A stretch of DNA of 48,600 nt from the NCBI GenBank assembly GCA_027365225.1, contig DAHXNV010000004.1, positions 45,875-94,474 on the forward strand. The letters run 5' to 3'. Within the stretch, counting starts at the first letter, position 1. Every line of letters starts with the position of its first letter. The notes under the pieces were generated by a model. It ran no database searches and was not told the origin of the DNA. It saw only the letters and a list, made by a program, of their open reading frames with translations. The position numbers and the translations under genes are program-made. Below, piece after piece: positions 15,860 through 41,292 of the stretch. The stretch is from Gammaproteobacteria bacterium. GTDB lineage: Bacteria; Pseudomonadota; Gammaproteobacteria; Steroidobacterales; Steroidobacteraceae.

Positions 15860-15997
15860 CCGGGCGATGGTACCGGATCGGACCGAGCGCCGCCGGCTCG
15901 GGCGCCGGGCACGACCCGTGCGCAGGCCACTGCCGCCGGGAGGGTTCCTTGCCGGCATTCCCGGGCTCGAAAGCGCGCAAGCCCGAGCGCGCCGAAT

Positions 15998-17455: not shown

Positions 17456-17543
17456 GGGGTTTCCTCATCCAGATAAAGGCTTGCTGGGACGCGAGCGGGC
17501 CGGGATTGATACGCCGGACGGTCGCAACGGCCGACGCAACCGG

Positions 17544-17558
17544 GCAAGACACACGCCG
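17544..17558 (-). promoter_or_regulatory. possible second sigma-54 promoter before tolC
   Basis: On the - strand the sequence CGGCGTGTGTCTTGC keeps the invariant GG and GC 10 bases apart and the TT before GC, but lacks A5 and C6 of the consensus TGGCACG-N4-TTGCW. It would start transcription near 17533, about 78 bases before the tolC ATG. This is a weaker match than the site at 22288-22303, and no enhancer repeats are visible next to it. Confidence 0.25.
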
Positions 17559-17577
17559 CGGCGCACTCCCTCGGGCT

Positions 17578-18798: not shown

Positions 18799-18822
18799 GA
18801 GGATGCCGGTGATGCGATGCGC

Positions 18823-20160: not shown

Positions 20161-20174
20161 GGCCGCAGCCTGAC

Positions 20175-20906
20175 TCAGTCCGTCGCCGATTCGGCGTGCG
20201 CCGGGCCCTGCCGTTCCCGCCTGCGCGCACCGGAGGCGGGAACGGTATCCGCGACCAGCCCGTCGATGATGTGGATGTTGCGCTCGGCGCGCCGGGCGAG
20301 CTCGGGATCGTGGGTGACCAGCACCACGGTGGTGCCCATCGAGTTGATCTTCTCCAGCAGATCCATGATCTGGCGGGCCATGAGCGAGTCGAGGTTGCCG
20401 GTGGGCTCGTCGGCGAGGATGAGCGCCGGGTCGCCGGCGATGGCGCGGGCGATCGCGGCGCGCTGCTGCTGGCCGCCGGAGAGTTGGGCGGGCAGATGCC
20501 TCATGCGCGAGGACAGGCCGACGAGCTCGAGGCTGTTCGCGATGCGCGCCGTGCGCTCGGCGGCTTTCATGCCCCGATAGCGCAGCGGTACGTCGACGTT
20601 ATCGAAGATGTCCAGGTCGGGAATGAGGTTGAAGCTCTGGAACACGAAACCGATCTTCTCGTTGCGAATGCGCGAGCGCGCATTGTCCGATAGCCCGCGG
20701 ATGTCCTGGCCGTCGAGCTTGTACGTGCCGCTGTCGAAGGTCTCGAGCAGTCCGGCCACATTGAGGAACGTGGTCTTGCCCGAGCCGGAGGGGCCGCTGA
20801 CGGCGATGAATTCCCCGGCCGCGACCTGCAGCGAGAACTCGCGCAGCGCATGCGTTTCGATCAGGTCGGTCCGATAGATCTTGCTGATGTTATGCATCTC
20901 GAGCAT
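20175..20906 (-). CDS. ABC transporter ATPase (LolD/MacB type)
   Basis: A 243-residue ATP-binding subunit with Walker [10 protein letters not shown] (38-46), Q-loop FVFQSFNL (87-94), signature LSGGQQQR (142-149), Walker B ALILADEP (161-168) and switch His199. The sequence is of the LolD/MacB/FtsE type that drives mechanotransmission through FtsX-fold permeases rather than transport across the inner membrane. A GAGG motif precedes the ATG. It follows the adaptor gene by 18 bases. The C-terminal 25 residues are a low-complexity charged tail. Confidence 0.92.
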
Positions 20907-20924
20907 GGCAACCTCGGTCGGCGC

Positions 20925-22253: not shown

Positions 22254-22287
22254 AGATGGCCCAACAGCGCTGGCATGTCCGTGCTGA

Positions 22288-22303
22288 TGCACACCTCGTG
22301 CCA
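22288..22303 (-). promoter_or_regulatory. sigma-54 (-24/-12) promoter of the MacAB-like operon
   Basis: Read on the - strand, the sequence is TGGCACGAGGTGTGCA against the consensus TGGCACG-N4-TTGCW. Every consensus base matches except the first T of TTGC. The invariant GG (22302-22301) and GC (22290-22289) are exactly 10 bases apart. Transcription would begin near 22278, 25 bases before the adaptor ATG. The operon encodes a GAFTGA-containing NtrC-type activator, which is what such a promoter requires. Confidence 0.82.
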
Positions 22304-25337: not shown

Positions 25338-26014
25338 CGCGCGGTGGCCTCGACCAGGCGGTAGCCGATCCCCCATTTGGTCTCGATGGACAGGCGGACC
25401 TGTGCGCCGGCGAGCTTGCGCCGCAGGCGCGATACGGCCGCCTCGAGGGCATTGGCGCTGCCGGCGTCCTCCAAGGCATAGAGGCGGTCTTCGAGCAGAT
25501 CTTTCGTGATCACCTGGCCGGGCATGCGCAGCAGCTCCTCGAGCAGCGCGGCTTCCCGACGGGTCAGATCGAGCGGCCGGCCGAATGCGGTGGCCTCGCG
25601 CGTGACCGTATCGAACGTGACTCCGCCGAGCGTGTAGCGGCTCTCGCGCCGGCTGCCGGCGCGGCGTAGTACCGCGCGCAGGCGCGCTTCCAGCTCGAGC
25701 AGGTTGAACGGCTTGACGATGTAATCATCGGCGCCGGAATTCAGGCCCAGAAGCCGCTCATCGAGTCCGTCACGGGCCGTCACGACGATGGCCGGCACGT
25801 CCGCATGCAAGGAGCGCAACGCCGTGAGCAGCGAAATGCCGTCGGTGTCGGGCAGGCCCAGATCCAGCACCACGGCATCGATCGGCGCAACGCGCGCCGC
25901 GGCGAGCGCCTGCTCGCCGCGGCCGACCGCGTCAACGGCAAAGCCACGCTCGCGCAGATGATCGGCGATCATCTCGCGGATGGCCTGGTGATCTTCGACC
26001 AGCAATACTCTCAT
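25334..26014 (-). CDS. OmpR/QseB-family response regulator
   Basis: A 226-residue regulator. The receiver begins MRVLLVEDHQ, with phosphoacceptor Asp51 in VVLDLGLPD and Lys in IVKPF. The C-terminal winged helix contains LTRREAALLEELL and VSRLRRKL. I chose the ATG at 26014 because it starts directly with the receiver strand; an upstream extension of 11 codons has no family similarity. It is followed by its kinase with an ATGA overlap. The 175 bases between this gene and the divergent efflux operon must hold both promoters. I found no direct repeats there that I can defend as its binding site. Confidence 0.9.
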   Translation of the reverse strand: MRVLLVEDHQAIREMIADHLRERGFAVDAVGRGEQALAAARVAPIDAVVLDLGLPDTDGISLLTALRSLHADVPAIVVTARDGLDERLLGLNSGADDYIVKPFNLLELEARLRAVLRRAGSRRESRYTLGGVTFDTVTREATAFGRPLDLTRREAALLEELLRMPGQVITKDLLEDRLYALEDAGSANALEAAVSRLRRKLAGAQVRLSIETKWGIGYRLVEATAR

Positions 26015-26189
26015 GCATGGCCCGTACGGATGCTGCGCCGGAGGCACACTCTCGATTATTATGCGCAGTCCGGCTCCGTGGCGCTCGTCAGGACTTGGTC
26101 AGCAATGCCTGCCAAGGTGCGGTGCCAGCTTTAGGATCGCCGGCGCCCGCGGGGCTATTCACGTGATTTTCAGGAGAGACAGACGACCG

Positions 26190-27638
26190 ATGTCTCGGAT
26201 TGGCAGGTACAGCCCAAGTTCGGCTCGCCGGTTTTTCAGTGCTCCCCGTGGGACGCGGCCCCGCCGCGCGGGCCACGGGATGCTGGTGCGGATGCTCGTG
26301 GGGTCTGCGGCTGCGCTGCTCGGGGGCTGCGCGACGTATCACGCGCTGCCGCTTGCGCGCGGACCGGATCTCGCGCCCCGACTGTCGCTGCTGCGCGCCA
26401 CGGTGCCGCCGCTGCGTCCGGGCGCTCATCCGCGGCGGATCGACCTCTCCAGGCCCCTTTCGCTGGCTGATATCGGGCTGCTTGCGGTGCTCAACGACCC
26501 CGCGCTGCGCTCGCAGCGGGGCGAGCGGGGTCTTGCCGAGGCCGGTGTGCTGCAGGCTTCCCTGCTGCCGAATCCGACCGCCAGCCTGAGCTTCGAGCCT
26601 TTGCTGTCCGCGGGTGTCTCACCGTCCTGGACGGCCATCCTGACCGAGAACGTGCGAGCGATCCTGACCTATCACACCCGGGTGGAATCGGCGCACTTCG
26701 CGCTCGGTCAAGTGGACGCGGATCTGCTCTGGCGCGAGTGGCAGGTGGCGCAGCAGGCGCGGGTGCTTGCGCTCAATTTGTATTGGGGCGACCGCTCGGT
26801 CAGGCTCGCTCGGCGAGAGCTCGGCGTGCTGGGGCGGGAGGTGCGCGCGGTTCGCTCGGCCACCAAGGCCCGTATTCTCGGCCTTGCCGTGCTCGCGCCG
26901 CTGCTCGCCGCCCAGGCTGCCGCGCAACAGATTCTGGATACGGCAAATCTCAGTCAACTGCGGGGCTGGCAGGACCTCGATGCATTGCTCGGACTGGCTC
27001 CGGGGGTGCGCTTCGCGATCGCCACGCCGGTGTTGCCGCCGCTGCCCGCCTCGCTGAGGACCGTGATCGACCGCTTGCCCGATCGGCGTCCCGACCTCGT
27101 GGCGCTCAGGCTCGGGTATCGCTCGGCGGACGAAAATGTGCGCACGGCGATCGTCGGGCAGTTTCCCGCCCTCACGCTCGGCGGCGAATGGGATCAGGAC
27201 AATACCAACACCCGCAATGCCGGGCCCACCGCCGCCTTCGCGGTGCCGATCTTCGACCGCAATCAGGGACAGATCGCCGTGGCACGCGCGACGCGCCGGC
27301 TGCTGCATGAACAGTATCAGGCGCGGCTCGATCAGGCGGTGGGCATGGCCCGAGCCCTGGCGGCGCGGATTCGCCAGCTCACGGGAGATGTCCGGCGGGC
27401 ACGGCGCGAGGCGCGGGTGGCCGAGTCGATGTCCAGAGCCGCCCGCAAGGCCTATGCCGAGGAGAATCTGGATCAGCGCTCACTCGTCGATTTCGAGACC
27501 ACAGCGCTGGAGCGCAGGATCGACGCCAATGCGCTCGAGCTGTCGCTGGGGGAGGCGCGCGTGGCCCTCACCGTCGATCTGGGGCTCGGGCTGCCGAGAA
27601 TCCGCCTGGCCCTGCCCGCACACCCGAGGACTCTGTAA
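26190..27638 (+). CDS. RND outer-membrane factor lipoprotein (CusC/OprM-like)
   Basis: A TolC-fold outer-membrane factor. A hydrophobic stretch ends in the lipobox LLGGC, with the acylated Cys about 46 residues after the ATG at 26190. Long helical repeats follow, with ASLLPNPTASLSFEP and VPIFDRNQGQIAVARATRR, typical of the NodT/CusC branch. Two starts are possible: ATG 26190 has AGGAGAG 11-12 bases upstream but gives a long n-region, and ATG 26280 gives a canonical 17-residue lipoprotein signal but has no Shine-Dalgarno. It heads an operon with the adaptor and pump genes. Confidence 0.85.
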   Translation: MSRIGRYSPSSARRFFSAPRGTRPRRAGHGMLVRMLVGSAAALLGGCATYHALPLARGPDLAPRLSLLRATVPPLRPGAHPRRIDLSRPLSLADIGLLAVLNDPALRSQRGERGLAEAGVLQASLLPNPTASLSFEPLLSAGVSPSWTAILTENVRAILTYHTRVESAHFALGQVDADLLWREWQVAQQARVLALNLYWGDRSVRLARRELGVLGREVRAVRSATKARILGLAVLAPLLAAQAAAQQILDTANLSQLRGWQDLDALLGLAPGVRFAIATPVLPPLPASLRTVIDRLPDRRPDLVALRLGYRSADENVRTAIVGQFPALTLGGEWDQDNTNTRNAGPTAAFAVPIFDRNQGQIAVARATRRLLHEQYQARLDQAVGMARALAARIRQLTGDVRRARREARVAESMSRAARKAYAEENLDQRSLVDFETTALERRIDANALELSLGEARVALTVDLGLGLPRIRLALPAHPRTL

Positions 27639-27640
27639 CG

Positions 27641-28693
27641 ATGAGCCGTCGATCCTTTGCCTGCTTCGCGCTCGGTCTGCTCGCCGCATTGCCGGTGGCA
27701 CATGCCGGCGGCACCAAGGTGAAGCCGAGCGTGTTGGTCACGCTGGCGCAACTGAAGGAGGGGGCCCTGCCTCATCAGGTGATCGCTTACGGTACCGTGG
27801 GTCCGAGCAGCGCGAGCCGCAAGACGATCATGGCGCCGGTGTCGGCGGTCGTCGACACAGTCTATGTGCGTCTCGGCGAGGCGGTCTCCCGGGGCGCGCC
27901 GCTGGTGCGTCTGGCGCCGAGTCCGCAGACCGCCGCCGCGTATGCACAGGCGCGATCGGCCATGGCCGTGGCGCGGCATTTGCTGGCCAGCACCCGCAAG
28001 CTCGTCGCCGAGCATCTGGCGACCGCGCAACAGCTGGCCGACGCCAAGAAGTCGCTGGCCGATGCGCGCGCGCAGCTGCGGGCCTTCCAGTCGCTCGGGG
28101 CCTCCGGCTCGAACGTCGTGCGCGCGCCGTTCGCGGCGATCGTGACCCTGCTCGCGGCGAGCCCGGGCGCGATCGTCACGCAGGGCTCGCCCCTGCTCGA
28201 TCTGGCGGCGCGGCGCGGGCTGGTGTTGACCGTCGGGGTGGTGCCTGTGCAGGCGGGCGAAATCAACGCCGGTGACAAGGCGCGCGTCACCCTCATCGGC
28301 GCCGGTCGCTCGGTGGGTGGGCGGGTGGTGCTGCGCGGGGACATGGCCGTCTCCGGCTCCGGCCTGGTGCCGGTCGAGATCGCGCTGCCGCCGGGGAAGT
28401 TCATGCCCGGGGAGATGGGCGAGGCGGCGATCACGACACGTAAGGTGCGCGGTTACGTCGTGCCCCATGCGGCCATTCTGGTCAACAGCAGCGGCGCGAC
28501 GTATGTCGTCCAAGCTGTCGGTCAGGTTGCGCACGAGGTACGCGTGCGCATCCTCGATTCCCAAGGGGACCGCAACGTCATCGCCGGGCCGCTCATCGCG
28601 CGCGCGCCGCTGGTGTTGACGGGCAACCACCAGTTGAGCAATGGCATGCGCATCCGGCTGGCCGACCCGGGCGCGCATGGAGCGCGGCGGTGA
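27641..28693 (+). CDS. RND efflux periplasmic adaptor
   Basis: A 350-residue membrane fusion protein with an N-terminal signal peptide (cleavage near VAHAG, about residue 23), an early beta-barrel/lipoyl half (IMAPVSAVVDTVYVRLGEAVSRG), a short coiled-coil hairpin (about 90-150) and the second lipoyl half (VVRAPFAAIVTLLAASPGAIV). The beta-barrel and membrane-proximal domains follow. It starts 2 bases after the outer-membrane factor stop and overlaps the pump start. CusB-like Met clusters are not evident, so a copper or silver role is not supported. Confidence 0.87.
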   Translation: MSRRSFACFALGLLAALPVAHAGGTKVKPSVLVTLAQLKEGALPHQVIAYGTVGPSSASRKTIMAPVSAVVDTVYVRLGEAVSRGAPLVRLAPSPQTAAAYAQARSAMAVARHLLASTRKLVAEHLATAQQLADAKKSLADARAQLRAFQSLGASGSNVVRAPFAAIVTLLAASPGAIVTQGSPLLDLAARRGLVLTVGVVPVQAGEINAGDKARVTLIGAGRSVGGRVVLRGDMAVSGSGLVPVEIALPPGKFMPGEMGEAAITTRKVRGYVVPHAAILVNSSGATYVVQAVGQVAHEVRVRILDSQGDRNVIAGPLIARAPLVLTGNHQLSNGMRIRLADPGAHGARR

Positions 28694-31600
28694 CTTTCGT
28701 CGATTGGATCGAGCGCTATCGGCGCTCGCTGCTGACAGTCTCGTTCGCGCTGGGCCTGGCAGGCGTTTTCGCGTGGATCGTCATACCGGTCGGGCTGTTC
28801 CCGGTGACCAGTTTCCCGCGTATCCGCATCGAGGTGAGCAGCGGGCACGTGCCGCCCCGGCAGATGCTGATCGATGTGACCGAGCCGCTCGAGCGCGTGG
28901 CCCGGGCCGTACCGGGTGCCGTGGACGTGAGTTCGGTCACCTCGCGGGGATCGGCGCAGATCTTCGTGGACTTCCCCTGGGGCTCGAACATGAAGCAGGC
29001 GGTGCTCAGGGTCGACGCCGCCTTCGCCCAGGAGTTGCCGGCGCTGCCGAAGGGTACCACGTATATCGTGATCAGGATGAGCCCGTTCATCCTGATGCCG
29101 TTCGTCGCCTACTCGCTGACTTCGAACACGGTTCCGTATGCGGCGCTCAGACGTCTGGCCAAGTATCAGATCGCGCCCCTGCTCACCGGCATCGCCGGGG
29201 TTCGCAAGGTGGGCGTGCTCGGCGGATCGACCCCCGAGGTGGAGGTGCGCGTCAATCCGCGCGAGCTGTCGGCCTACGGATTGACCCTCACACAGGTCTC
29301 TCAGGCGCTCGCGCAGACCAACGTCATTCGCGGGGTCGGGAGGCTGCAAGACAATGACTTGCTGTATCTGACGATCAGCGACAACGCCTTCCACTCGCTT
29401 GCTTCGGTGCGTAACGTCGCGCTGCGCGCAGGGGCCGCCGGCATCGTGCGGCTCGGGCAGATCGCCACGGTCACCATGGGGTCGGTGCCGCGGTGGCTGA
29501 TCGTGGATGACAACGGCCAGCCGGGCGTGAACATCAATGTCTATCAGCAAAGCTCGGCCGATTCCCTGCAGCTCGCCCGGAAGGTCAAGCGCAAGCTCGC
29601 GGTGTTCATGAAGACCCAGCCGCCGGCGATCCATCTGGACAAGTGGTACGACCAGACGCAGCTGGTGCGCTCCTCGGTCGCGGCGCTCGAGGAGGCGATC
29701 CTGATCGGCCTGGTCTTCGCCGGGCTGGTCCTGTTGGCGTTCCTGCGCAACTGGCGCGTGACGATGGTGGCCATGATCGTGGTGCCGCTGTCGGTGCTGA
29801 TCACGGTGCTGCTGCTGTCGCTGCTCGGCATGACGCTGAACATCATGACCCTCGGGGGCATCGCCGCGGCGATCGGCCTGATGATCGACGATGTGATCGT
29901 CATGGTCGAGCACATCGCGCGCCGCACCGGCCTGCCGCACATCGTGAACCCGCAGGCCACGGTCCTGCAGGCGGCCAAGGAATTCTTCGGCCCATTGCTC
30001 GGCTCGAGCCTGGCGACCACCATCATCTTCATCCCGCTCGCCTTTCTCTCGGGCGTCACCGGGGCGTTCTTCAAGTTCCTCTCGCTCACGGTCGCCTCGG
30101 CGCTGATCATCTCGCTGCTGTTGACGGCGTTCACCGTGCCGCTGCTCGCCCGTAGCTTCATTGACTTCAAGACCTTCAAGGACCCGGCGCACGGTCGGGA
30201 GACCTGGTTCGTGCGCGGCCATCGCCGGGTCCTGAACCGGCTGCTCGATCGGCCGCTGTGGTTGATACCGGGGATCGTGGTGCTGCTCGCCATGGGGTTT
30301 TTCGCCTACACGCACGTGGCCACCGGCTTCATGCCGAGAATGGACGAGGGCGGTTTCGTGCTCAACTATCACACGAAACCCGGCACCTCGCTGCCCGAGT
30401 CCAACCGGGAATTGCTCGAGATCGAGGCGATCCTGGAGAAGGATCCGTACGTTGAGAGCTTCTCGCGGCGCACGGGCGCCGGTCTCGGCGGCGACCTGAA
30501 TGCGACGTATGAGGGGGATTTCTTCGTTAGGCTCATTCCCGCCGCGAAACGGCCGAACATCTGGGCGGTGATGGACGAGATCTCGCGCAAGATCTCGGTG
30601 CAAGTGCCGGGAATTCACTTCGACACCGCGCAGCTGATGAGCGACATGATCGGCGATCTGGTGGGACGCCCGCAGCCGGTGGTGATTGACCTCACTGCCA
30701 ACAATCCGGCGTTGCTGCCCGCGGTTGCCCGGCGGGTGGCCGCCGCGATCGCCAAGGTTCGCGCCATCCAGCCAGCCTCGGTCGACAGCGGGTTGGTGCC
30801 GGCCGGCGATGCGCTCGAGTTCCACATCGACCGCGCGGCGGCCGCGATGGAGGGCGTGACGGCGCAGGAAGTGGCGAGCCAGCTGCATGACTATCTGTAC
30901 GGCTCGGTCGTGACCCATTACCTCGGCGTCGTTCGCAACGTCGGCGTGCGGCTCTGGCTCGATCCGCCGCAGGGCAAGATCTATCGGAACGAACTCGGGA
31001 ATCTCCTCATTAGCGCGCCGGACGGACGGATCATGCGGCTTGCCACCGTGGCACGGGTCAAATTCGTCGCCGGACAACCGCGGCTGACCCGCAACAACCT
31101 CGCGCAGATCGTGCCCGTGACCGCGCGGATCAGAGATGGCGGCAGCCTCGGTGCGGCGATCACGGCGGTGCAGAAAGTGCTCGCGCGCCCGGGAATGATT
31201 CCGCACGGGGTCTATTACACGCTCGGCGGGCAGTACAAGCAGGAGCAGGCGGCGGTGAGCGGTATGATCAAGGTGTTCACCGCGGCGCTCATTGCCGAGT
31301 TCATCCTGCTGCTGTTCCTGTACCAGCGCTTCTCGCTGCCCATCGTCGTCATCGCCAGCTCGCTGTTCTCGACCGGAGCGGTGTTCATCGGCCTGTGGCT
31401 GACTGGCGTGGAGCTCAATATCACGGCCATGATGGGCATGGTGATGGTCATCGGCATTTCCACGGAGATGGCGATCTTCCTCATCTCCGAGTACCAGGAG
31501 CTGGGCAAGACGATGCCGCCGCACCAGGCGATCTACGAGGCGGCCCGCAACCGGCTGCGACCGATCACCATGAGTACGCTCGCCATGATCCTCGCCCTGT

Positions 31601-31761
31601 TGCCGCTCGGGGCGGCAATCAGCGGCTCGGGCGATCAGATGCTGCAGCCGCTCGCCATTGCGATCATCGCCGGCGCACTCCTGCAGCTGCCTCTGGTGCT
31701 GCTCGTCATGCCGGTGGTCATCGGGCTGCTTTCGGGGCGCTCGCGCACCGCGGTGGCATGA
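28690..31761 (+). CDS. RND efflux pump, inner-membrane transporter
   Basis: A 1023-residue RND transporter with 12 predicted membrane helices and two large periplasmic loops. The GTG start forms a GTGA overlap with the adaptor stop. Helix 4 has the proton-relay pair Asp400-Asp401 in GLMIDDVIVMVEH, as in AcrB. In helix 10 the residue that aligns with AcrB Lys940 is Glu926 (GISTEMAIF), a feature I associate with heavy-metal-type pumps such as CusA. The protein is thus neither a plain HAE1 nor an obvious HME pump, and the substrate is open. It ends 13 bases from the convergent hydrolase gene. Confidence 0.9.
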   Translation: MTFVDWIERYRRSLLTVSFALGLAGVFAWIVIPVGLFPVTSFPRIRIEVSSGHVPPRQMLIDVTEPLERVARAVPGAVDVSSVTSRGSAQIFVDFPWGSNMKQAVLRVDAAFAQELPALPKGTTYIVIRMSPFILMPFVAYSLTSNTVPYAALRRLAKYQIAPLLTGIAGVRKVGVLGGSTPEVEVRVNPRELSAYGLTLTQVSQALAQTNVIRGVGRLQDNDLLYLTISDNAFHSLASVRNVALRAGAAGIVRLGQIATVTMGSVPRWLIVDDNGQPGVNINVYQQSSADSLQLARKVKRKLAVFMKTQPPAIHLDKWYDQTQLVRSSVAALEEAILIGLVFAGLVLLAFLRNWRVTMVAMIVVPLSVLITVLLLSLLGMTLNIMTLGGIAAAIGLMIDDVIVMVEHIARRTGLPHIVNPQATVLQAAKEFFGPLLGSSLATTIIFIPLAFLSGVTGAFFKFLSLTVASALIISLLLTAFTVPLLARSFIDFKTFKDPAHGRETWFVRGHRRVLNRLLDRPLWLIPGIVVLLAMGFFAYTHVATGFMPRMDEGGFVLNYHTKPGTSLPESNRELLEIEAILEKDPYVESFSRRTGAGLGGDLNATYEGDFFVRLIPAAKRPNIWAVMDEISRKISVQVPGIHFDTAQLMSDMIGDLVGRPQPVVIDLTANNPALLPAVARRVAAAIAKVRAIQPASVDSGLVPAGDALEFHIDRAAAAMEGVTAQEVASQLHDYLYGSVVTHYLGVVRNVGVRLWLDPPQGKIYRNELGNLLISAPDGRIMRLATVARVKFVAGQPRLTRNNLAQIVPVTARIRDGGSLGAAITAVQKVLARPGMIPHGVYYTLGGQYKQEQAAVSGMIKVFTAALIAEFILLLFLYQRFSLPIVVIASSLFSTGAVFIGLWLTGVELNITAMMGMVMVIGISTEMAIFLISEYQELGKTMPPHQAIYEAARNRLRPITMSTLAMILALLPLGAAISGSGDQMLQPLAIAIIAGALLQLPLVLLVMPVVIGLLSGRSRTAVA

Positions 31762-33511: not shown

Positions 33512-34591
33512 CTACGCGCCGCGGGCCGCGTGCGCCGCGGCCGCGAGCGCCGGGTAGTCGGTGTAGCCCGCCGCGCCGCCCTGGTAGAAGTATTCGGGGC
33601 GCGGCTCGTTGAGCGGGGCGCCGCTGCGCAGTCGCGCGGGCAGATCCGGATTGGCAATGAACAGTTTGCCGAAGGCCACCGCGTCGGCCTCGCCGCGCTG
33701 CAGCAGTTGCTCGGCGGCCTGGCGATCGAGTCTTTCGTTGGCGATGTAGGCGCCGCTGAAGGTGCGCTGCAGCTGCGGGCCGATCCGCTCGCCTTGCAGG
33801 TGCTCGCGCGCGAACAGGAATGCGATGCGACGCCGGGCGAGTTCCCGTGCCACATATCCAAATGTCGCGGCGCGGTCCGAATCCCCCATGGAGTGCGTGT
33901 CACCTCGCGGCGCGAGGTGCACGCCGACCCGTCCGGGTCCCCAGACGGCGATCGCCGCGTCTGTCACTTCCAACAGCAGTCGGGCACGGTTCTCCACTGA
34001 GCCACCGTAGTCGTCAGTGCGGCGGTTCGCGCCATCCTGCAGAAACTGATCGAGCAGGTAGCCGTTGGCGCCGTGTATTTCCACGCCGTCGAAGCCTGCA
34101 CGCTGGGCGTTCTCGGCGCCGCGGGTGAACGCCGCAATGACCTCGGGAATCTCTGCGCGCGCGAGCGCGCGCGGCACCACGTAAGGCTGCTTCGGCGTGA
34201 CGAGGCTGACGTTGCCTTGCGGAGCAATGGCGCTAGGGGCGACCGGCAGCGCACCGGCGAGGAACAGCGGATGCGAGATCCGACCGACGTGCCAGAGCTG
34301 AAGAAACATGCGTCCGCCCGCCTGGTGCACCGCGCGGACCACGTGCCGCCAGCCCTCGGTCTGCTCGTCGGACCAGATGCCGGGCGTATCGGCGTATCCG
34401 ACACCTTGCCGGCTCACCACGGTCGCCTCCGAGATGATCAGTCCGGCCGATGCGCGTTGCCGGTAGTACTCGCGCATCAGCGCATTGGGCACACGCTCGC
34501 GGCCGGCCCGGCTGCGGGTCAGGGGCGCCATGACGATGCGATTGGGGAGAGTCAGCTCACCGAGTTGCAGCGGTTCGAACAGCGAAGGCAT
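33512..34591 (-). CDS. Old Yellow Enzyme-family FMN reductase (NemA-like)
   Basis: A 359-residue alkene/N-ethylmaleimide reductase. The N-terminus LFEPLQLGELTLPNRIVMAPLTRSRA is diagnostic. The substrate-binding His and Asn are in HGANGYLLDQFL, the catalytic Tyr is two residues after that Asn, and NRRTDDYGGSVENR is conserved. OYE enzymes reduce electrophilic alkenes and quinones with NADPH. The ATG at 34591 matches the family start; longer in-frame versions overlap the ArsR gene. It lies 49 bases after the ArsR stop in the same direction, so the two may be co-transcribed. Confidence 0.92.
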   Translation of the reverse strand: MPSLFEPLQLGELTLPNRIVMAPLTRSRAGRERVPNALMREYYRQRASAGLIISEATVVSRQGVGYADTPGIWSDEQTEGWRHVVRAVHQAGGRMFLQLWHVGRISHPLFLAGALPVAPSAIAPQGNVSLVTPKQPYVVPRALARAEIPEVIAAFTRGAENAQRAGFDGVEIHGANGYLLDQFLQDGANRRTDDYGGSVENRARLLLEVTDAAIAVWGPGRVGVHLAPRGDTHSMGDSDRAATFGYVARELARRRIAFLFAREHLQGERIGPQLQRTFSGAYIANERLDRQAAEQLLQRGEADAVAFGKLFIANPDLPARLRSGAPLNEPRPEYFYQGGAAGYTDYPALAAAAHAARGA

Positions 34592-34640
34592 GGGATCGGC
34601 GAAACTCCGAGGTGGCAAGCGCGTATTGAAGCACGAGGGG

Positions 34641-35003
34641 TCAGGGGCTGCAGAATTCATCATGCAATAGGGCAAGCAGGCGCGTGACGATGCCCGGGGC
34701 CAGGGAGTAATGGACCGTTTGCGACTGGCGTTCGGTGCGCACCATGCCGGCTTTGCGCAGCACCGCAAGGTGCTGGGAGAGCGCGGACTGGCTGAGCGGT
34801 ACGCGCTCGTTGAGCTGACCGACCGACAGAGACTCGGGCACCAGGTGGCACAGGATCATCAAGCGCTGCTCGTTGGCGAGTGCCCGCAGTACAGCGACCG
34901 CTTCCTGACAGTGCGGCTGCAGGTCGCGGGCGGCGCGCGTGAGCGCCCCGGCGCGTGCCGGTGGCCGGTGGGTTCTCGGTGCGACGGGCGGCTCGGTTGC
35001 CAT
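34641..35003 (-). CDS. ArsR-family repressor of the BigR/SqrR/YgaV persulfide-sensor type
   Basis: A 120-residue winged-helix repressor with LRALANEQRLMILCHL, SQSALSQHLAVLRKAGMV (recognition helix) and VHYSLA. It carries Cys52 and Cys118, 66 residues apart. From memory this is the spacing of the redox cysteines of BigR (Cys42 and Cys108), in the same local contexts (RLM-x2-C and FC near the C-terminus). A third Cys32 lies upstream. No metal-binding ELCVCD motif is present, so arsenic sensing is unlikely. I chose ATG 35003; a GTG at 35024 is possible. It is divergent from DUF2892, the E. coli ygaV-ygaP arrangement. Confidence 0.88.
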   Translation of the reverse strand: MATEPPVAPRTHRPPARAGALTRAARDLQPHCQEAVAVLRALANEQRLMILCHLVPESLSVGQLNERVPLSQSALSQHLAVLRKAGMVRTERQSQTVHYSLAPGIVTRLLALLHDEFCSP

Positions 35004-35042
35004 GATGGAGCGAGTGTAATGCACGGCTCTGTAAATCGCTAC

Positions 35043-35070
35043 TTGCTAAATTAGGGAGACCTAATATACT
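35043..35070 (+). promoter_or_regulatory. promoter of the DUF2892-RND operon with ArsR operator in the spacer
   Basis: -35-like TTGCTA (35043-35048), a 16-base spacer and -10-like TATACT (35065-35070). The inverted repeat ATTAGG-GAGA-CCTAAT (35050-35065) fills the spacer and touches the -10. With flanking bases, 8 of 9 arm positions pair. A dimeric ArsR repressor bound here would block polymerase. Transcription would start near 35077, 48 bases before the DUF2892 start. This is the AT-rich spot in an otherwise GC-rich region. Confidence 0.68.
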
Positions 35071-35124
35071 GGCTGTCATCGCGCCCGCCCGGATGCGCTG
35101 CGGGCGCGCGCACAGGAGAAGGTC

Positions 35125-35325
35125 ATGACAGTCGATCGGATCATATTCGCCTTCGCCGGCACCCTCGTGCTGCTCGGTGTGCTGCTCGCCTGGCTGCTCG
35201 GTCCATGGTGGCTGCTCCTGCCGGGGCTGATCGGGATGAACATGCTGCAGGCGGCCTTCAGTGGCTTCTGTCCGCTCGCGCGCATCCTGAAGCATTTCGG
35301 CGTCAGGCCGGGTGCGGCGTTCTGA
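35125..35325 (+). CDS. DUF2892 (YgaP transmembrane-type) small membrane protein
   Basis: A 66-residue protein that is almost entirely two membrane helices (about 5-24 and 27-43), followed by GFCPLARILKHFGV. This Cys-containing signature is shared with the membrane half of the E. coli rhodanese YgaP and with the DUF2892 proteins of BigR operons. The rhodanese domain itself is missing. AGGAGA precedes the ATG. It is the first gene of the operon controlled by the divergent ArsR repressor. The exact biochemical role is not known; a sulfur or thiosulfate link is inferred from context. Confidence 0.87.
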   Translation: MTVDRIIFAFAGTLVLLGVLLAWLLGPWWLLLPGLIGMNMLQAAFSGFCPLARILKHFGVRPGAAF

Positions 35326-35338
35326 GCGGCAGCGAGCC

Positions 35339-36421
35339 GTGGCGCGCCGAGCCGGATACTGGGCCGTCGTTGGCGCGTGCGCGCTGACCGCCGGGCTGAG
35401 CGGGTGTGCCGCGCGGCACGGCCCGCCGATGCGCGCCGCCGGCGCGCCGCTGAGTGCGGTGCGCGTGGAGCCGCGCAGCACCCTTGCCGAACGCGGTTTC
35501 GACGGGATCGTGCACGCGGTCGAGCGCGCAACCCTGAGCGCCCAGACCGGCGGACGGGTCGCGGCGATCTACCACGACGTCGATCAGTCCGTGCCGGCCG
35601 GGGCGCTGTTGATCCGGCTGCGTGCCACGATCCAGCGCGCGGATCTGGCGCAGGCGCGAGCCGCGCTGCATGCGGCCCGGGCGCGGGCCACGGAAGCCGA
35701 CACGCGTTACCGGCGCATCCGTGCCCTGTACGAGCAGCGGGTCGTACCCAAAGCGGACTTCGATCAGGTGACTGCCGCGCGCGCCACCGCGGTCGCCTCG
35801 CTCCACGCGGCGCGCGCGGCGCTCGCCGCCGCGGCCGAGGGGGTCGATTACACCGAGATCCGCGCGCCCTTCGCCGGCGTGGTGAGCGCGCGCATGGTCG
35901 AGGTGGGCGAGGCGGTCGCCCCCGGAACGCCGCTGATGCGGGTGGCGTCGCTGACGCATCTGCGGGTGCTGACGAGCGTGCCGCAGTCGCTGGCCGGCAC
36001 GATCAGGCGGCTCGGCAGGGCCACGGTCAGCTTCGACGGTCGCTCGATCGAAGCGGCTGACGTGACGGTCTATCCGCAGGCCAGCGCCGGCGCCAATGTT
36101 TTTCCGGTGCGCGTGTCGTTGCCGCAGCCGATCCCCGGGCTGTTTCCGGGCATGGTGGTGCGCGTGCGGTTCCCGACGGGCCGGCGCACGGAATTGCTGG
36201 TGCCGGCGAGCGTGATCGTGCGCCGCAGTGCGGTGACCGCCGTGTACCTGGTGCAAGCCAACGGTGACACGCTGTTGCAGCAGGTCAGGCTCGGGCGCAG
36301 GGTCGGCGGGCAGGTGGCGGTGCTCTCGGGGCTCGCCGCCGGCGAGCGGGTCGCGCTCGATCCACTGGCGGCCATGCGCCGGCTCGAGCCGTTCCCGGTG
36401 CTCACCGGGAGCGCGCGGTGA
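35339..36421 (+). CDS. RND efflux periplasmic adaptor, lipoprotein
   Basis: A membrane fusion protein of 360 residues with an N-terminal lipoprotein signal ending in LSGC (Cys23). A lipoyl half (TGGRVAAIYHDVDQSVPAGALL), a short coiled-coil hairpin (about 95-165) and the second half (YTEIRAPFAGVVSARMVEVGEAV) are followed by beta-barrel and membrane-proximal domains. I chose the GTG at 35339, which gives a compact signal peptide. A GTG at 35312 in the same frame overlaps the DUF2892 gene and would add 9 basic residues. The stop overlaps the pump start. Confidence 0.87.
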   Translation: MARRAGYWAVVGACALTAGLSGCAARHGPPMRAAGAPLSAVRVEPRSTLAERGFDGIVHAVERATLSAQTGGRVAAIYHDVDQSVPAGALLIRLRATIQRADLAQARAALHAARARATEADTRYRRIRALYEQRVVPKADFDQVTAARATAVASLHAARAALAAAAEGVDYTEIRAPFAGVVSARMVEVGEAVAPGTPLMRVASLTHLRVLTSVPQSLAGTIRRLGRATVSFDGRSIEAADVTVYPQASAGANVFPVRVSLPQPIPGLFPGMVVRVRFPTGRRTELLVPASVIVRRSAVTAVYLVQANGDTLLQQVRLGRRVGGQVAVLSGLAAGERVALDPLAAMRRLEPFPVLTGSAR

Positions 36422-39400
36422 GCACGGAGCTCGGATTCAGCGGGCGGCTCGCCCGGCGCTTCCTGCATCATCAGATCACCCCGCTGATCGCGATCGTGGC
36501 CGTGGTCGCGGGGCTGTTCGCGCTGGCCGTGACCCCGCGTCAGGAAGATCCTGACATCAATGTCACCTTCGCCAATGTGTTCGTTCCATTTCCGGGGGCG
36601 TCCTCGGCCCAGGTCGAGCGCGAGGTGAGCACGCCCCTGGAGCAGGTGCTCGGCGCGGTCCGGGGCATCAAGCACATCTATGCCGTCTCGCGGCCGGGGC
36701 TCGCGGTGATTACCGTGCAATACCGGGTCGGCCAGCCGCGCACCGCCGCCATCGTGCGGCTTTACAATGCGATCTATTCGCATCGGAATCTGTGGCCCGC
36801 CAATTCCGGCATCCTCAGGCCGCTCGTGCGGCCGATGGGCATCGCCGATGTGCCCATCATGACGCTGACGCTCTGGAGGAATGATCCGAGCCGCGGCTCC
36901 TACCAACTCGGTCAGGTGGCGCACGCCATCGAGACTCAGCTGCAGCGCGTGCCGGGCACGCGCCGGGTCCACACGATCGGGGCGCCGCGCGGCATCATGC
37001 GGGTGCGGCTCGATCCGGGAAAGCTTGCCGCCTACGGGCTCGCCGCCGGCGAGATCATGCACTCGCTGCAGGCGGCCAACCTCACGCTGCAAGCCGGCTC
37101 GCTGATCGGCGATGACCGGGTGGTGCCGGTCCAGGCCGGACAGTTCCTGGCCGACCGCGCCGCGGTGGCGAATCTCGTGATCGGCGTTCACGCTGGACGG
37201 CCGGTGTATCTCGCCGACGTCGCCGACGTCGCCTTCGAGCCCGATGCGCCGCATTCCTACGTGTGGTTCGGCACCGGGCCGGGCGCTGCCCGGCGCGATC
37301 TGCCGCAAGTCAGTTACGCCCCGGCGGTGACGATTGCCATCGCCAAGAAGACCGGCACGAACGCCGGCACCGTCGCGGCCGGGGTGCTGCGGCGCCTGCG
37401 GCAGCTGCGCGGCACGTACATTCCCGCGGGAGTGCACGTCACTGTGACCCGCAATTACGGGCACGGCGCCGACCAGAAGGCGAGGAAGCTGATCGAGAAG
37501 CTGATCGAGGCCACCGTCTCGGTGGTGTTGCTCGTCATGCTCGCCATGGGCCGGCGCGAGGCGGTCGTGGTCGGGGCGGCGGTCGGGGTCACGCTGATGG
37601 CGACACTGTTCGCCTCATGGGCGTGGGGATTCACCATCAACCGGGTGTCGCTGTTTGCGTTGATTTTCTCGATCGGCATCCTGGTCGACGATGCGATCGT
37701 GGTGGTGGAGAACGTCCACCGGCACATGCGCCTCGGCGGCGGTACGCTGAGCGACATCATTCCGGTGGCGGTCGACGAGGTCGGGGGTCCGACCATTCTC
37801 GCCACGCTGACGGTGATTGCGGCGCTGCTGCCCATGGCCTTCGTCGGCGGCATGATGGGTCCCTACATGAGCCCCATCCCGATCAACGCCAGCTCCGGGA
37901 TGCTGATCTCCCTCGCCGTGGCGCTCATGCTGACCCCGTGGCTGTGCCGCAAGCTGCTCGGCGGCCGTCATATCGAGGCCACCGAGCACCGCCCGCAGTT
38001 GCCGCTGCTGCCCCTGTTCCAGCGCGTGGTCGGCCCCTTTCTCGCCGGCTCGCGCGGCCGCCGCCGCCGCCGCTGGCTGTACGCGGCCATCGGCCTGGCG
38101 ATCCTGGCGGCGTTGAGCCTGGCGCTCACCGAGTCGGTGGTATTCAAGATGCTGCCCTTCGACAACATGTCGGAGTTCGAGGTGGTGGTGGAGATGCCGG
38201 TCGGCACCACCGTGGAGAGCACCGCGCACGTGCTCGATGAGCTGGCGCAGGTGATCGCGCGGGTGAAGCAAGTGAGCGACTATCAGGTCTATGCCGGCAC
38301 TCACGCGCCCGTGAACTTCAATGGCCTGGTGCGCCAATACTATCTGCGGCGGGCACCGCGCTACGGGGAAATCGCGGTGGAGCTGGTCCCGAAGAGCGAG
38401 CGTCGTCTCCAGAGTCATCGGATCGCGCTTGCGGTGCGCCCGGCGCTGGCCCGGGTGGCGCGCCGATTCGGGGCGGATATCCAGGTGGTGGAGGTGCCGC
38501 CGGGACCGCCGGTGCAGGCGCCCATCGTCGCGGAGATTTTCGGTCCCAGCTACGCCGTGCAGCGCGCGCTCGCGCTGCGGATCCGCAAGGTGTTCGACAG
38601 CACGCCGCACATCGTCGATACCTACGACACCGTCGATGCGCGAGCCCGACGCCTGGTCGTCGCTGTCGATCGGCAGAGGGCCGCGTTGCTCGGTGTGTCC
38701 CAGGCCCAGATCGCGCGGACGCTCTCCATGGCGCTCTCGGGATATGACGCCACTTACGTGCACATCGGATCGGAACGACACTTGATTCCGGTCCGGCTCG
38801 AGCTCTCTCCGGCGCGCCAGGCAAGGATCAGCCAGGTGCTCGCTCTGCGGGTCCGGGCCGTCGATGGGGCGCTCGTGCCGCTCTCGGAGCTGGTGCGGGT
38901 CCGCAAGCGCGCGTGGGACGGCGCAATCTATCAGAAGGATCTTATGCCCGTGACCTATGTCATGGGGGATATGGCCGGTCCGCTCGACAGTCCTTTGTAT
39001 GGCATGTTCGATATCGCCGCGAGGCTGCGCGGTCTGAAGGTCGCCGGGCAGACCCTGGAGCAGCGCTTCATCAGCGCACCGGCCAATCCCAACCGCTTCG
39101 CGGTGAAGTGGAGCGGGGAGTGGCAGGTCACCTACGAAACCTTCCGGGACATGGGGATCGCCTATGCGGCGGGGCTGGTGCTGATCTACCTGCTGATCGT
39201 GGCGCAGTTCGGCTCGTACGTCGTGCCGTTCATCATCATGGCGCCGATCCCGCTCACCATCATCGGGGTGATGCCCGGGCACGCGCTGCTGCACGATCAG
39301 TTCACGGCAACCTCCATGATCGGGATGATTGCGCTGGCCGGCATCATCGTGCGCAACTCGATCCTGCTGGTCGACTTCATCGACGGCGCGGTGCGGGCCG

Positions 39401-39657
39401 GCTACTCAGTGGAGGAAGCGGTGGTGCGCGCCGGTGCGATCCGCGCCAAGCCGATCGCGCTCACGGCGGTGGCGGCGATGCTGGGCGCGGTCTTCATCCT
39501 GTCCGATCCGATCTTCAACGGACTGGCGATCTCGCTCCTGTTCGGCATCTTCGTCTCGACGCTGCTGACACTCGTCGTGATTCCGATTCTGTACTACGTC
39601 TACCTGAAGCGTAAAGAAGCGCGCACGGTGCGCGCGAACGCGGCGCACGCCCCATGA
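36418..39657 (+). CDS. RND efflux pump, inner-membrane transporter
   Basis: A 1079-residue HAE1-like RND transporter. The GTG start forms a GTGA overlap with the adaptor stop. Helix 4 carries Asp424-Asp425 in ILVDDAIVVVENVHRH. Helix 10 has Arg979 in GIIVRNSILLVDF where AcrB has Lys940, so the basic residue of the proton relay is conserved in charge. Two large periplasmic loops are present, and an Arg-rich linker (GRRRRRW, about 550) precedes helix 7. Neighbours (persulfide-type repressor, DUF2892, SQR remnant) suggest export of a reactive sulfur compound or a thiol-reactive toxin. That is inference only. Confidence 0.92.
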   Translation: MSTELGFSGRLARRFLHHQITPLIAIVAVVAGLFALAVTPRQEDPDINVTFANVFVPFPGASSAQVEREVSTPLEQVLGAVRGIKHIYAVSRPGLAVITVQYRVGQPRTAAIVRLYNAIYSHRNLWPANSGILRPLVRPMGIADVPIMTLTLWRNDPSRGSYQLGQVAHAIETQLQRVPGTRRVHTIGAPRGIMRVRLDPGKLAAYGLAAGEIMHSLQAANLTLQAGSLIGDDRVVPVQAGQFLADRAAVANLVIGVHAGRPVYLADVADVAFEPDAPHSYVWFGTGPGAARRDLPQVSYAPAVTIAIAKKTGTNAGTVAAGVLRRLRQLRGTYIPAGVHVTVTRNYGHGADQKARKLIEKLIEATVSVVLLVMLAMGRREAVVVGAAVGVTLMATLFASWAWGFTINRVSLFALIFSIGILVDDAIVVVENVHRHMRLGGGTLSDIIPVAVDEVGGPTILATLTVIAALLPMAFVGGMMGPYMSPIPINASSGMLISLAVALMLTPWLCRKLLGGRHIEATEHRPQLPLLPLFQRVVGPFLAGSRGRRRRRWLYAAIGLAILAALSLALTESVVFKMLPFDNMSEFEVVVEMPVGTTVESTAHVLDELAQVIARVKQVSDYQVYAGTHAPVNFNGLVRQYYLRRAPRYGEIAVELVPKSERRLQSHRIALAVRPALARVARRFGADIQVVEVPPGPPVQAPIVAEIFGPSYAVQRALALRIRKVFDSTPHIVDTYDTVDARARRLVVAVDRQRAALLGVSQAQIARTLSMALSGYDATYVHIGSERHLIPVRLELSPARQARISQVLALRVRAVDGALVPLSELVRVRKRAWDGAIYQKDLMPVTYVMGDMAGPLDSPLYGMFDIAARLRGLKVAGQTLEQRFISAPANPNRFAVKWSGEWQVTYETFRDMGIAYAAGLVLIYLLIVAQFGSYVVPFIIMAPIPLTIIGVMPGHALLHDQFTATSMIGMIALAGIIVRNSILLVDFIDGAVRAGYSVEEAVVRAGAIRAKPIALTAVAAMLGAVFILSDPIFNGLAISLLFGIFVSTLLTLVVIPILYYVYLKRKEARTVRANAAHAP

Positions 39658-39727
39658 GTGATGGGCCGCTGCTCGCGGCAGGACGGTTGGTTTCTCGCCT
39701 CGGAGAGTCTCTCCACGGAGGTCTGTC

Positions 39728-39994
39728 ATGGCACACGTAGTCATCATGGGCGCGGGCCTCGGCGCAGTGCCGTGCGCCGACCCGATGCGCAAGGGCCTCG
39801 GCGCGGCACACCGCCGTAGACTCCTCGGGTCATCGGCATTCTGCGAGTTCACCCCGTCGAACCGGTGGATCGCGGTGGGCTGGCGCGAGAAATACTTCCC
39901 GCGCACGCTGCGCAGCGGATCGACCGCGCCCGTTCATGAGCGCTACGTATGCAAGGCGCTCGGCGCCCACACACTGAAGGACCTGCGCTCATGA
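39728..39994 (+). pseudogene. sulfide:quinone oxidoreductase remnant with large in-frame internal deletion
   Basis: An 88-codon ORF. Residues 1-53 (MAHVVIMGAGLG near the start, FTPSNRWIAVGWR at the end) match the FAD-binding N-terminus of SQR-type flavoproteins. Residues 54-88 (EKYFPRTLRSG, ERYVCKALG) match their extreme C-terminus. Roughly 340 residues between, with the redox cysteines and quinone site, are missing, and the two ends are joined in frame. The last Gly of the FAD motif is Ala (GAGLGA), and the stretch after AAHRRR has drifted, as expected of decay. Yet GGAGG lies 6 bases before the ATG, and the stop overlaps the tolC ATG. It may survive as a translated coupling peptide. Confidence 0.75.
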
Positions 39995-41292
39995 AGGCAC
40001 TGCACGGCGCTCTTGCCGGCGCGCTGCTCGCTGTCGCGCTCGCTCTGTCCGCGCCGGTGCGCGCCCAGACCCTCGAGCAGGCCTGGCGCCTCGCGGCCGA
40101 ACATGATCGGACGCTCGCGGCAGCCGCCGATGACGTACAGGCGGCGCGCTCCAGTGCGAGGGCCGCACGCGCCGGACGCTGGCCGAGCATCCGGAGCCAG
40201 GCGAGTTATACCCGCTTTGGGCAGACACCCGAACTCGACGTGGTGACGCCGGCATCGGCGTTGCGATCCGGACCGATCTTCAAGAATGACCAGTACGTCA
40301 GTGCGTCGGTGCAGGTGCGCCTGCCGCTGTACAGCGGCGGGGCGATTCGCAACGGCATCGACGCGGCGCGCGCGGGTCTGAAGGGCGCATCGGCCACCGA
40401 GCACGCCGTGAGTGCGGACGTGAAGCTCGAGGTCGCCGACGCGTACGTGGCGGTGTTGCGCGCACAACGTGCGCTCGGCGTGACACGGGAAAGCGTCACC
40501 AGTCTCGCCGCGCAGGTGCGCGATGTGCGGGCGAAGTACCAGCGGCAGGCGGTGGCCAAGAGCGATCTGCTGGCCGCGCGCGTGGCGCTGGCGAATGCCC
40601 GCGAGCAGCAAGTCGCAGCGGACAATACGCTCGCCATCGCCCGGGCCAGCTACGAGCGCCTGCTCGGGGCGCCGCTCGATCGGGTGCCGCACCTGGATCC
40701 GAGGTTGCCGGTGTTCGCCGTCGACAGTCTGCCGCTTGCGGCATTGCTCGCGCGCGCGCTGCACTCGCGCCAGGAGCTGCGGGCACTCGGTGCGCGGGCC
40801 GCGGCGCTCGCCGCCCGCGCCCGCGTCGTCGATGCGAGCCGTCTGCCGCACATCGTGGCGCTCGGCGGCTATACGCACTTCGACAACCAGATTCTCAATC
40901 ACCAGAATTTCTCGATGGTCGGACTGGGGTTCACCTGGAAGCTGTTCGACGGCGGTGCGGCGGGGAACGCGGCGGACGCGCTGCGGGCGCGCAGCCGTGC
41001 CGAGCGGCAGCGTCTCGCGGACCTGCGCTCGCGGATCGAGCTCGCCGTGCGAGCCGCCTGGCTGCAGCTCGCCGCCGCGCGCGCACAGATCGAGGCGTCG
41101 CGAGCCGCCACGGCGCAGGCGGCCGAGAATCTGCGCATCTCGCGCGAGCTGTACCGGGTGGGGCTCGCCTCGAACACGCAGGTGCTCGAGGCCGTGACCC
41201 TGCGCGCCGAGGCCGCGCGCAACTATGACGATGCAAGGCTCGATGCGGCGCTCGATCGGCTGCGCCTGGCGTACGCGGTCGGTGCGCTCTGA
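39991..41292 (+). CDS. TolC-family outer-membrane efflux protein
   Basis: A 433-residue TolC-fold protein with a signal peptide ending near APVRAQ (about residue 25), two helical repeat halves, and motifs AGRWPSIRSQASYTRF, VRLPLYSGGAIRNGIDAARAG and FTWKLFDGGAAGNAADALRARS. No lipobox is present, unlike the outer-membrane factor at 26190. The ATG shares ATGA with the stop of the SQR remnant, and AAGGA lies about 10 bases upstream. It is the last gene of the operon and completes the tripartite pump. It converges with the K+ channel gene with 7 bases between the stops. Confidence 0.9.
   Translation: MKALHGALAGALLAVALALSAPVRAQTLEQAWRLAAEHDRTLAAAADDVQAARSSARAARAGRWPSIRSQASYTRFGQTPELDVVTPASALRSGPIFKNDQYVSASVQVRLPLYSGGAIRNGIDAARAGLKGASATEHAVSADVKLEVADAYVAVLRAQRALGVTRESVTSLAAQVRDVRAKYQRQAVAKSDLLAARVALANAREQQVAADNTLAIARASYERLLGAPLDRVPHLDPRLPVFAVDSLPLAALLARALHSRQELRALGARAAALAARARVVDASRLPHIVALGGYTHFDNQILNHQNFSMVGLGFTWKLFDGGAAGNAADALRARSRAERQRLADLRSRIELAVRAAWLQLAAARAQIEASRAATAQAAENLRISRELYRVGLASNTQVLEAVTLRAEAARNYDDARLDAALDRLRLAYAVGAL

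Follow-up and report, generated by a model that had tools for sequence, protein, structure and literature searches.

Introduction

What becomes of an operon that pairs sulfide oxidation with efflux once its oxidizing enzyme has collapsed? This question is raised by a gene cluster at positions 34641-41292 of a 48,600-nucleotide stretch of gammaproteobacterial DNA (the window; all coordinates are window positions), in which an ArsR-family repressor faces the genes of a tripartite efflux pump of the resistance-nodulation-division (RND) type and what appears to be a remnant of a sulfide-quinone reductase (SQR) gene. To our knowledge, it is not settled by what route zero-valent sulfur that forms at the inner membrane gets out of a Gram-negative cell. 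We argue herein that the locus is probably a reactive-sulfur-inducible tripartite efflux operon that, in this lineage, was left with efflux alone after the loss of its SQR.

The SQR remnant and its intact counterparts

The genes of the cluster are as follows.

34641..35003, minus strand: ArsR-family repressor, 120 amino acids (PF01022, E 1.5e-11)
35125..35325, plus strand: small membrane protein with a YgaP-like_TM domain (formerly DUF2892), 66 amino acids (PF11127, E 1.8e-10)
35312..36421, plus strand: RND periplasmic adaptor (MFP) (TIGR01730, 199 bits against a cut-off of 95; PF16576)
36418..39657, plus strand: RND permease, 1079 amino acids (PF00873, E 2.6e-142)
39728..39994, plus strand: SQR remnant, 88 codons, its stop overlapping the tolC start (ATGA)
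39991..41292, plus strand: TolC-family outer-membrane channel (PF02321, E 7.6e-54)

An initial annotation of this DNA had described an ArsR repressor facing DUF2892, adaptor, pump, SQR remnant and TolC, and open reading frames and Pfam matches place every one of these genes where it had been put. The arrangement is not due to chance, because the identical order is found again in relatives. The adaptor and permease genes share 4 nt; this overlap and those of the YgaP/MFP and remnant/TolC frames are consistent with a single transcript and coupled translation. Close to the N-terminus of its listed frame, the adaptor has a lipobox-like LSGC, recognized by eye.

The remnant consists of the first 53 and the last 35 codons of an SQR gene, joined in frame at 39886/39887, with 338 codons lost. 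Its two halves are 75% and 71% identical to residues 1-55 and 392-426, respectively, of the intact SQR of a relative, G011; the best solved relative of that intact protein is the sulfide-quinone reductase 3sz0 (E 1.3e-164), which we take to be the enzyme of Acidithiobacillus ferrooxidans. No Pfam or NCBIfam model matches the remnant. Its first glycine motif is altered, and the cysteines that are conserved mid-protein in intact relatives fall in the deleted part. When the source genome was searched for SQR, it gave only the remnant's two pieces and, at another place, a partial match at 32% identity; the deleted middle part did not turn up. We thus regard the remnant as a pseudogene of an A. ferrooxidans-type SQR, not as a working SQR. 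At the deletion junction, a short CGAG is common to both flanks in G010, which fits a microhomology deletion. An ATGA usable as both SQR stop and tolC start is present in 11/11 intact relatives and retained in the window; the in-frame deletion may have been kept because tolC stayed translated.

The codons that survive are decaying. Compared with G011, dN/dS is 0.84 for the remnant (0.157/0.187), against 0.13 for RND (345 codons), 0.23 for TolC, 0.30 for MFP, 0.32 for ArsR and 0.38 for YgaP. Amino-acid-changing and silent codon changes number 22 and 7 in the remnant and 56 and 78 in TolC. Fisher tests on such counts separate the remnant from RND (p 2e-6), TolC (0.001) and MFP (0.007), while the two smallest neighbors, ArsR (0.08) and YgaP (0.24), are inseparable from it. 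With G010 as a third point, the branch dN of the remnant is 0.127 for the window and 0.030 for G011, and the corresponding values are 0.035/0.033 for TolC, 0.058/0.036 for MFP and 0.040/0.050 for ArsR. The remnant is therefore a fast-evolving, decaying gene rather than a misassembled one.

As explanations of the remnant, we consider both an assembly error and a working small protein very improbable. The source genome, a fragmented draft in 218 contigs (the window being on contig C163), is 65.6% complete, which would suit the former, and the remnant's frame is open, with the conserved ATGA at its end, which would suit the latter. Nevertheless, an assembly join leaves the extra amino acid changes in the flanks unexplained; taken with the dN/dS ratio and the lack of an SQR middle elsewhere in the assembly, these changes led us to reject an assembly error. 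The near-neutral ratio also speaks against a working small protein, as do the changed glycine motif and the deleted cysteines.

Intact counterparts are common among relatives. Sixteen of the 40 genomes searched with the permease, the source genome included, hold an orthologue (at least 57% identity; the next match is at 31%), and the orthologues in relatives are 57-94% identical to the window permease. Of the 15 others that hold the pump (39 others were searched), 11 have a full-length SQR between RND and TolC: G003, G005, G007, G010, G011, G013, G017, G020, G021, G022 and G023. In G019 and G012 the cluster is cut by contig ends, the SQR start being visible in G019; G001 has another kind of ArsR and an SQR further downstream, and G030 has the order TolC-MFP-RND and no SQR. 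When 15 congeners were searched with SQR, matches above 60% identity were found in 7, as a single copy in each and on the pump contig. The initial annotation had proposed to look for an intact SQR at this position in relatives and had taken the remnant to mean that an ancestral operon coupled oxidation with efflux. The 11 genomes supply the former and uphold the latter, with this copy having kept its efflux genes. The further claim that the lineage kept only efflux holds at this locus; for the organism as a whole it is likely but not proven, given the incompleteness of the assembly.

The pump subfamily and its neighborhoods

A scan of named genomes yielded 80 pump loci at 53-62% identity, the best 80 of 582. 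By title they are mostly from gamma- and betaproteobacteria, with a few from alphaproteobacteria, and many carry the names of sulfur oxidizers. Within 6 kb of the pump, 23 of these loci have an ArsR with two sensor-type cysteines (identified by sequence pattern), 9 have another ArsR (L083 has both), 46 have YgaP-TM and 76 have MFP. SQR was flagged at 20, comprising 18 close SQRs, one remnant and one distant homologue; the count of 18 excludes L080 (the remnant) and L074 (a 23% homologue) and includes L091, which is cut by a contig end. Around 20 paralogous pumps, by comparison, there were 20 MFPs and no two-cysteine ArsR, other ArsR, YgaP-TM or SQR; these controls came from the congeneric genomes and the source genome, none from the named genomes, and four lie on contigs shorter than 7 kb. 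Among the other neighbors of the 80 loci, grouped into BLAST clusters, most are housekeeping-like; rhodanese-like and thioredoxin-like clusters are present at 7 loci each, and persulfide dioxygenase (PDO)-like and TauE-like clusters at 4 each.

The order of these genes varies. In the window's genus, ArsR faces YgaP-MFP-RND-SQR-TolC; in L069, L070, L076 and L079, it faces SQR-YgaP-MFP-RND; L102 has ArsR-MFP-SQR-RND-YgaP; and in L090, L104, L110, L115, L118 and L120, the other kind of ArsR faces MFP-RND-YgaP, followed by SQR. Identical content in shuffled order argues for a functional association, not hitch-hiking. The association extends to whole genomes. Among 275 genomes at least 90% complete from the window's class (taken as Gammaproteobacteria in the GTDB sense; own genome left out), 50 have both a pump orthologue and SQR, 32 the pump only, 34 SQR only and 159 neither (odds ratio 7.3, Fisher p 3e-12, uncorrected for kinship). 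The pump counts, which include four partial-length matches (57-61% identity) entered manually, are lower bounds. As judged from its surroundings, then, the pump is one of a proteobacterial RND subfamily whose members often lie beside sulfur genes. A sister group shows about 40-46% identity to the pump, and some of its genomes, such as G070 and G108, hold SQR as well.

Collapse of SQR beside this pump has happened more than once. In Castellaniella caeni NBRC 101664 (L080; order ArsR, SQR, YgaP, MFP, RND), the SQR is internally deleted with other break points, and the pump groups with those of intact-SQR relatives in a clade separate from that of the window (a quick tree with SH-aLRT support only). 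We therefore consider the C. caeni collapse to be independent of the window's. The C. caeni deletion (L080:7997-8350) is out of frame: the C-terminal match (8087-8332) does not lie in the frame of the start at 8016. SQR was also sought in 16 genomes that hold the pump with a two-cysteine ArsR or YgaP and have no intact SQR beside it, namely 14 of the 15 two-cysteine named loci of this description (L055 left out) and two YgaP-only loci. In these genomes, whose completeness is not stated, a cut-off of E 1e-20 left nine lacking any SQR match, C. caeni with its remnant alone and six with an SQR elsewhere, one match among these six being at 44% identity. This search and the C. caeni locus point to export in the absence of SQR, which looks like a recurrent state.

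In the permease itself, the ACR_tran domain (PF00873) covers residues 17-1061, the whole length. The protein falls under the cut-offs of all 14 NCBIfam models that it touches, the best being RND_permease_2 (453.7 of 1250 bits), and its best solved relative is MdtB (225 bits). The proton relay of AcrB comprises, we assume, D407 and D408 in transmembrane helix 4 (TM4) and K940 in TM10. The TM4 aspartates are present in 91/91 family members. At the position of K940, the window permease has R979; arginine occupies this site in 88/91 of the family (with 2 gaps and 1 Asp) and lysine in 20/22 paralogues. Positions that are at least 99% conserved cluster at residues 631-644 and 692-699; both clusters, putatively in the porter domain, hint that the pump has a dedicated substrate. 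We also considered a cysteine site and rejected it, as the sole cysteine of the pump, C510, is not conserved.

The ArsR regulator and its operator-like element

The window ArsR has the sensor-type cysteines C52 and C118, which align with those of HlyU and SqrR in a PDB-based alignment. Both are kept in the ArsR of 11/11 congeners and in 23/33 of the ArsR matches close to the pump in named genomes; the initial annotation had ascribed to this protein the redox cysteines of BigR, SqrR and YgaV, and rightly so. An 18-row alignment also shows the pair, but its rows were selected for having both cysteines and give no independent support. A third cysteine, C32, is found in 10/11 congeners and in 0/23 two-cysteine ArsRs of the named loci. 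By bit score, the solved relatives are HlyU (87.9), SqrR (63.6), NolR (63.4), BigR (56.5), YgaV (54.0) and NmtR (39.9). A tree places the window ArsR with SqrR, BigR, HlyU, YgaV and NolR, and CzrA/SmtB split off at 99/96; branching within the sensor side is weak, and long branches were flagged. (Sequences were admitted at 50 bits, which excluded the L113 ArsR at 49.) The proposed check that this repressor groups with reactive-sulfur rather than metal sensors thus came out in favor of the former. The protein was rejected as a metal sensor, because metal sensors score lower among its solved relatives and branch apart in the tree. It reaches 74.9 bits on the NCBIfam BigR model NF040642, short of the cut-off of 155, and we accordingly place it as a relative of BigR, not as BigR in the strict sense. 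Its AlphaFold2 model has a pLDDT of 87. In excerpts of PMC12423496, characterized sensors with this cysteine pair make a tetrasulfide with sulfane-sulfur donors, and in those of PMC10509353, HlyU is reactive toward glutathione persulfide (GSSH) and not toward H2O2. We infer that the window ArsR senses sulfur and is thereby derepressed.

Other ArsRs accompany the same pump at L083, L090, L104, L110, L112, L113, L115, L118 and L120, and also at L036 (G001); these loci are mostly betaproteobacterial. Those of the nine that are in the tree (eight) and that of G001 fall on the CzrA/SmtB side, implying that at least two unrelated regulators were recruited to one pump.

The predicted promoter faced by the window ArsR has these elements.

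35043..35048, plus strand: -35-like box TTGCTA, found by eye; a similar layout was seen by eye in the promoters of the genus
35046..35064, plus strand: operator-like element CTAAATTAGGGAGACCTAA, with the core inverted repeat TTAG-N6-CTAA at 35051-35064
35065..35070, plus strand: -10-like box TATACT, found by eye, with a 16-nt spacer from the -35-like box

The operator-like element sits between the -35-like and -10-like boxes. Upstream of two-cysteine ArsRs, TTAG-N6-CTAA occurs without mismatch in 17/33 cases and with one mismatch in 8/33; with at most one mismatch, it is thus present in 25/33, against 45/1650 random 300-nt stretches of unmatched base composition (L083 was dropped as too short). 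At up to two mismatches, 0.01 matches would be expected in the window, for a pattern drawn from these same promoters. The element is conserved in the window's branch. A longer form of the pattern was scanned, at one mismatch or fewer, in 25 genomes. The source genome has a single site, at this promoter. In G003, G010, G011, G012 and G013, every site is on the cluster contig; G005 has one further site elsewhere, and in G007 the sole site is on a contig not linked to its split cluster. Because a reversed control pattern is also present in these congeners, single sites carry little weight, and the argument is carried by position and recurrence. A wide regulon in the source genome was rejected, since the pattern occurs there once, the same as the reversed control. 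The window ArsR looks like a local repressor.

Neighboring genes

An Old-yellow-enzyme-type flavin oxidoreductase frame (33515-34768, minus strand) adjoins ArsR on the same strand and overlaps its listed end; the two could share a transcript. Just upstream of the cluster is a second RND operon (26013-31761, plus strand), with genes for an outer-membrane factor, an HlyD-type adaptor and a 1023-residue permease, and several relatives likewise have other RND genes close to the cluster. We considered this second operon as part of the system and set it aside, by judgement, as a different pump. Further away (13165-22292, minus strand), a histidine kinase and a sigma-54 response regulator lie beside a MacB-type exporter cluster of an outer-membrane factor, two MacB-like permeases and an HlyD adaptor.

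Discussion

A mechanism may be proposed for this locus. A reduced ArsR dimer would sit on TTAG-N6-CTAA within the promoter and block transcription. A persulfide or polysulfide would join C52 to C118 and release the repressor, and YgaP-TM, MFP, RND and TolC would then be produced. In relatives, the same transcript would also yield SQR, which would convert sulfide to zero-valent sulfur at the membrane, and the pump, via TolC, could rid the inner membrane or periplasm of polysulfide, low-molecular persulfide, S8 or a thiol adduct. In the window's lineage, an in-frame deletion would have removed SQR while preserving the coupling to tolC, leaving an efflux-only response. As to the substrate, the hypothesis that we favor is a product or by-product of sulfide oxidation.

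The neighborhoods described above suggest that the pump family belongs to sulfide defense and can outlast the loss of SQR. A bolder proposal, which we offer tentatively and hold to be somewhat doubtful, is that the subfamily serves specifically to export zero-valent or persulfidic sulfur. It would be the missing step by which the SQR product is taken out of the cell, would be under the control of sulfane sulfur itself, and would be separable from oxidation, such that lineages exposed to polysulfide instead of sulfide keep export only. The subfamily is, in any case, a concrete candidate for the exit of zero-valent sulfur, because, in several proteobacterial groups, it is found repeatedly next to SQR and sensors of the sulfane-sulfur type, its regulators being of two or more unrelated ArsR kinds and its gene order varying. 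Strains in which SQR alone has been lost at the locus, such as the window's and C. caeni, offer natural experiments in which export is uncoupled from oxidation. These considerations also suggest that sulfide-induced RND pumps need not signify a general drug or metal response.

Several facts weigh against a sulfur-responsive, sulfur-exporting operon. NolR, which lacks the cysteine pair in the PDB alignment, is placed with the sensors in the ArsR tree. Nine named loci have another ArsR type, without C52, beside the same pump, and the ArsR of G001 does not match the two-cysteine pattern; with eight of the nine and that of G001 on the CzrA/SmtB side, sulfur sensing is not universal for this pump. 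Eight two-cysteine ArsRs of the Thiobacillus/Gallionella/Sulfurimicrobium branch show TTAG-N6-CTAA only with two to three mismatches, which rules the repeat out as a universal operator, and the reversed control pattern also occurs 0-3 times per cluster-bearing congener. No cysteine is conserved in the pump, C510 being variable across the family. As many as 46/91 members of the pump-family tree have no ArsR or SQR within 6 kb, in some cases because of contig ends, and the genome-level co-occurrence test makes no correction for kinship. Finally, in Azospira suillum PS, whose related operon is compared below, deleting SQR or the whole operon left the rate of H2S oxidation unchanged, and the authors proposed that RND pumps export metal sulfides (excerpts of PMC5358917).

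This last proposal leads to a different account, in which metal-sulfide complexes, heavy metals or other poisons arising secondarily from sulfide exposure are what the pump removes, with sulfane sulfur as a mere trigger and SQR as a companion. We consider it unlikely. It was put forward for RND pumps raised under H2S in A. suillum, where metal-efflux and iron-uptake proteins were also altered under H2S (PMC5358917, in part), and the nine named loci with another kind of ArsR would accord with it, that of L120, the only one compared with the PDB, being closest to CzrA/SmtB. The permease, however, scores 201.6 bits on the CusA/CzcA heavy-metal model, far from its cut-off of 701.45, and its best PDB matches are multidrug-type pumps, though it is below every listed multidrug cut-off; nor is its only cysteine conserved.

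In another account, the operon encodes a multidrug or electrophile pump. Its inducer would be a thiol-reactive toxin and not sulfane sulfur, or else sulfane sulfur would be just one signal among several, as in the case of MexR and MexAB-OprM. MexR is indeed reactive toward sulfane sulfur and stands over a drug pump (excerpts of PMC11211675), and YgaV, whose operon is tributyltin-inducible according to the title of Gueune 2008, lies on the same side of the ArsR tree. We nonetheless find this account quite improbable: SQR is associated with the pump repeatedly, across gene orders and regulator types, and co-occurs with it at the genome level, which links the pump itself to sulfide, and the invariant clusters around 631-644 and 692-699 hint at a dedicated substrate. 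Our preferred reading of the locus is still that of a reactive-sulfur-inducible efflux operon that has lost its SQR.

Comparison with known systems

In the open-licence literature searched, the accessible passages describe neither the SQR collapse nor this pump subfamily in its own right. Nonetheless, the initial annotation's view that an RND pump is foreign to BigR/SqrR-type regulons is not supported as stated, in view of two papers. In a 2025 survey of sHdrR and SoxR centered on Hyphomicrobium denitrificans (PMC12423496), RND pumps are among the likely targets adjoining two-cysteine SqrR-type regulators; its main text, in the parts at hand, differs in treating neither SQR collapse nor this pump subfamily. 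The other paper describes a sulfide-induced SQR-RND operon (PMC5358917, 2017). The A. suillum operon Dsui_3440-3443 encodes an unknown protein, an RND pump, SQR and MFP; it is highly expressed under H2S and is the one operon to which Bar-seq pointed under that condition. A separate DUF2892 gene of that organism is up about tenfold under H2S. MFP, RND and SQR stand together there, as in the window's relatives, with orthology judged from gene content only, and L114 (Accumulibacter) has the same MFP-SQR-RND order with YgaP-TM as a fourth gene. The A. suillum operon differs in that its SQR is intact and lies between MFP and RND; TolC is unlisted, and the word "ArsR" is absent from the paper's excerpted text. 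The sulfur link of the pump is thus stronger and wider than the initial annotation could see, and less new than it claimed.

Other systems resemble the locus in part. MexR of P. aeruginosa, which reacts with sulfane sulfur and controls MexAB-OprM (PMC11211675), is likewise a cysteine-pair repressor over a tripartite RND pump; it is a MarR-family protein, however, its pump is a multidrug one, and no SQR is mentioned in the operon in the excerpted text. A BigR operon includes PDO and YeeE-type genes (excerpts of PMC7315123), and a different RND set is up on pyrite (excerpts of PMC11267869), but neither of these has a bearing on the present locus. E. coli ygaV-ygaP likewise pairs a two-cysteine ArsR with an adjoining protein that has a YgaP-type membrane domain, but YgaP is annotated as a sulfurtransferase, owing to its rhodanese part, and no pump adjoins it. 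With SqrR, BigR, YgaV and HlyU, the window ArsR shares both sensor cysteines, the same side of the tree and a compact inverted repeat in the promoter that it faces. HlyU is its closest solved protein, and the curated BigR model is not reached. What sets the window ArsR apart from these regulators is its adjacent output, a tripartite RND pump.

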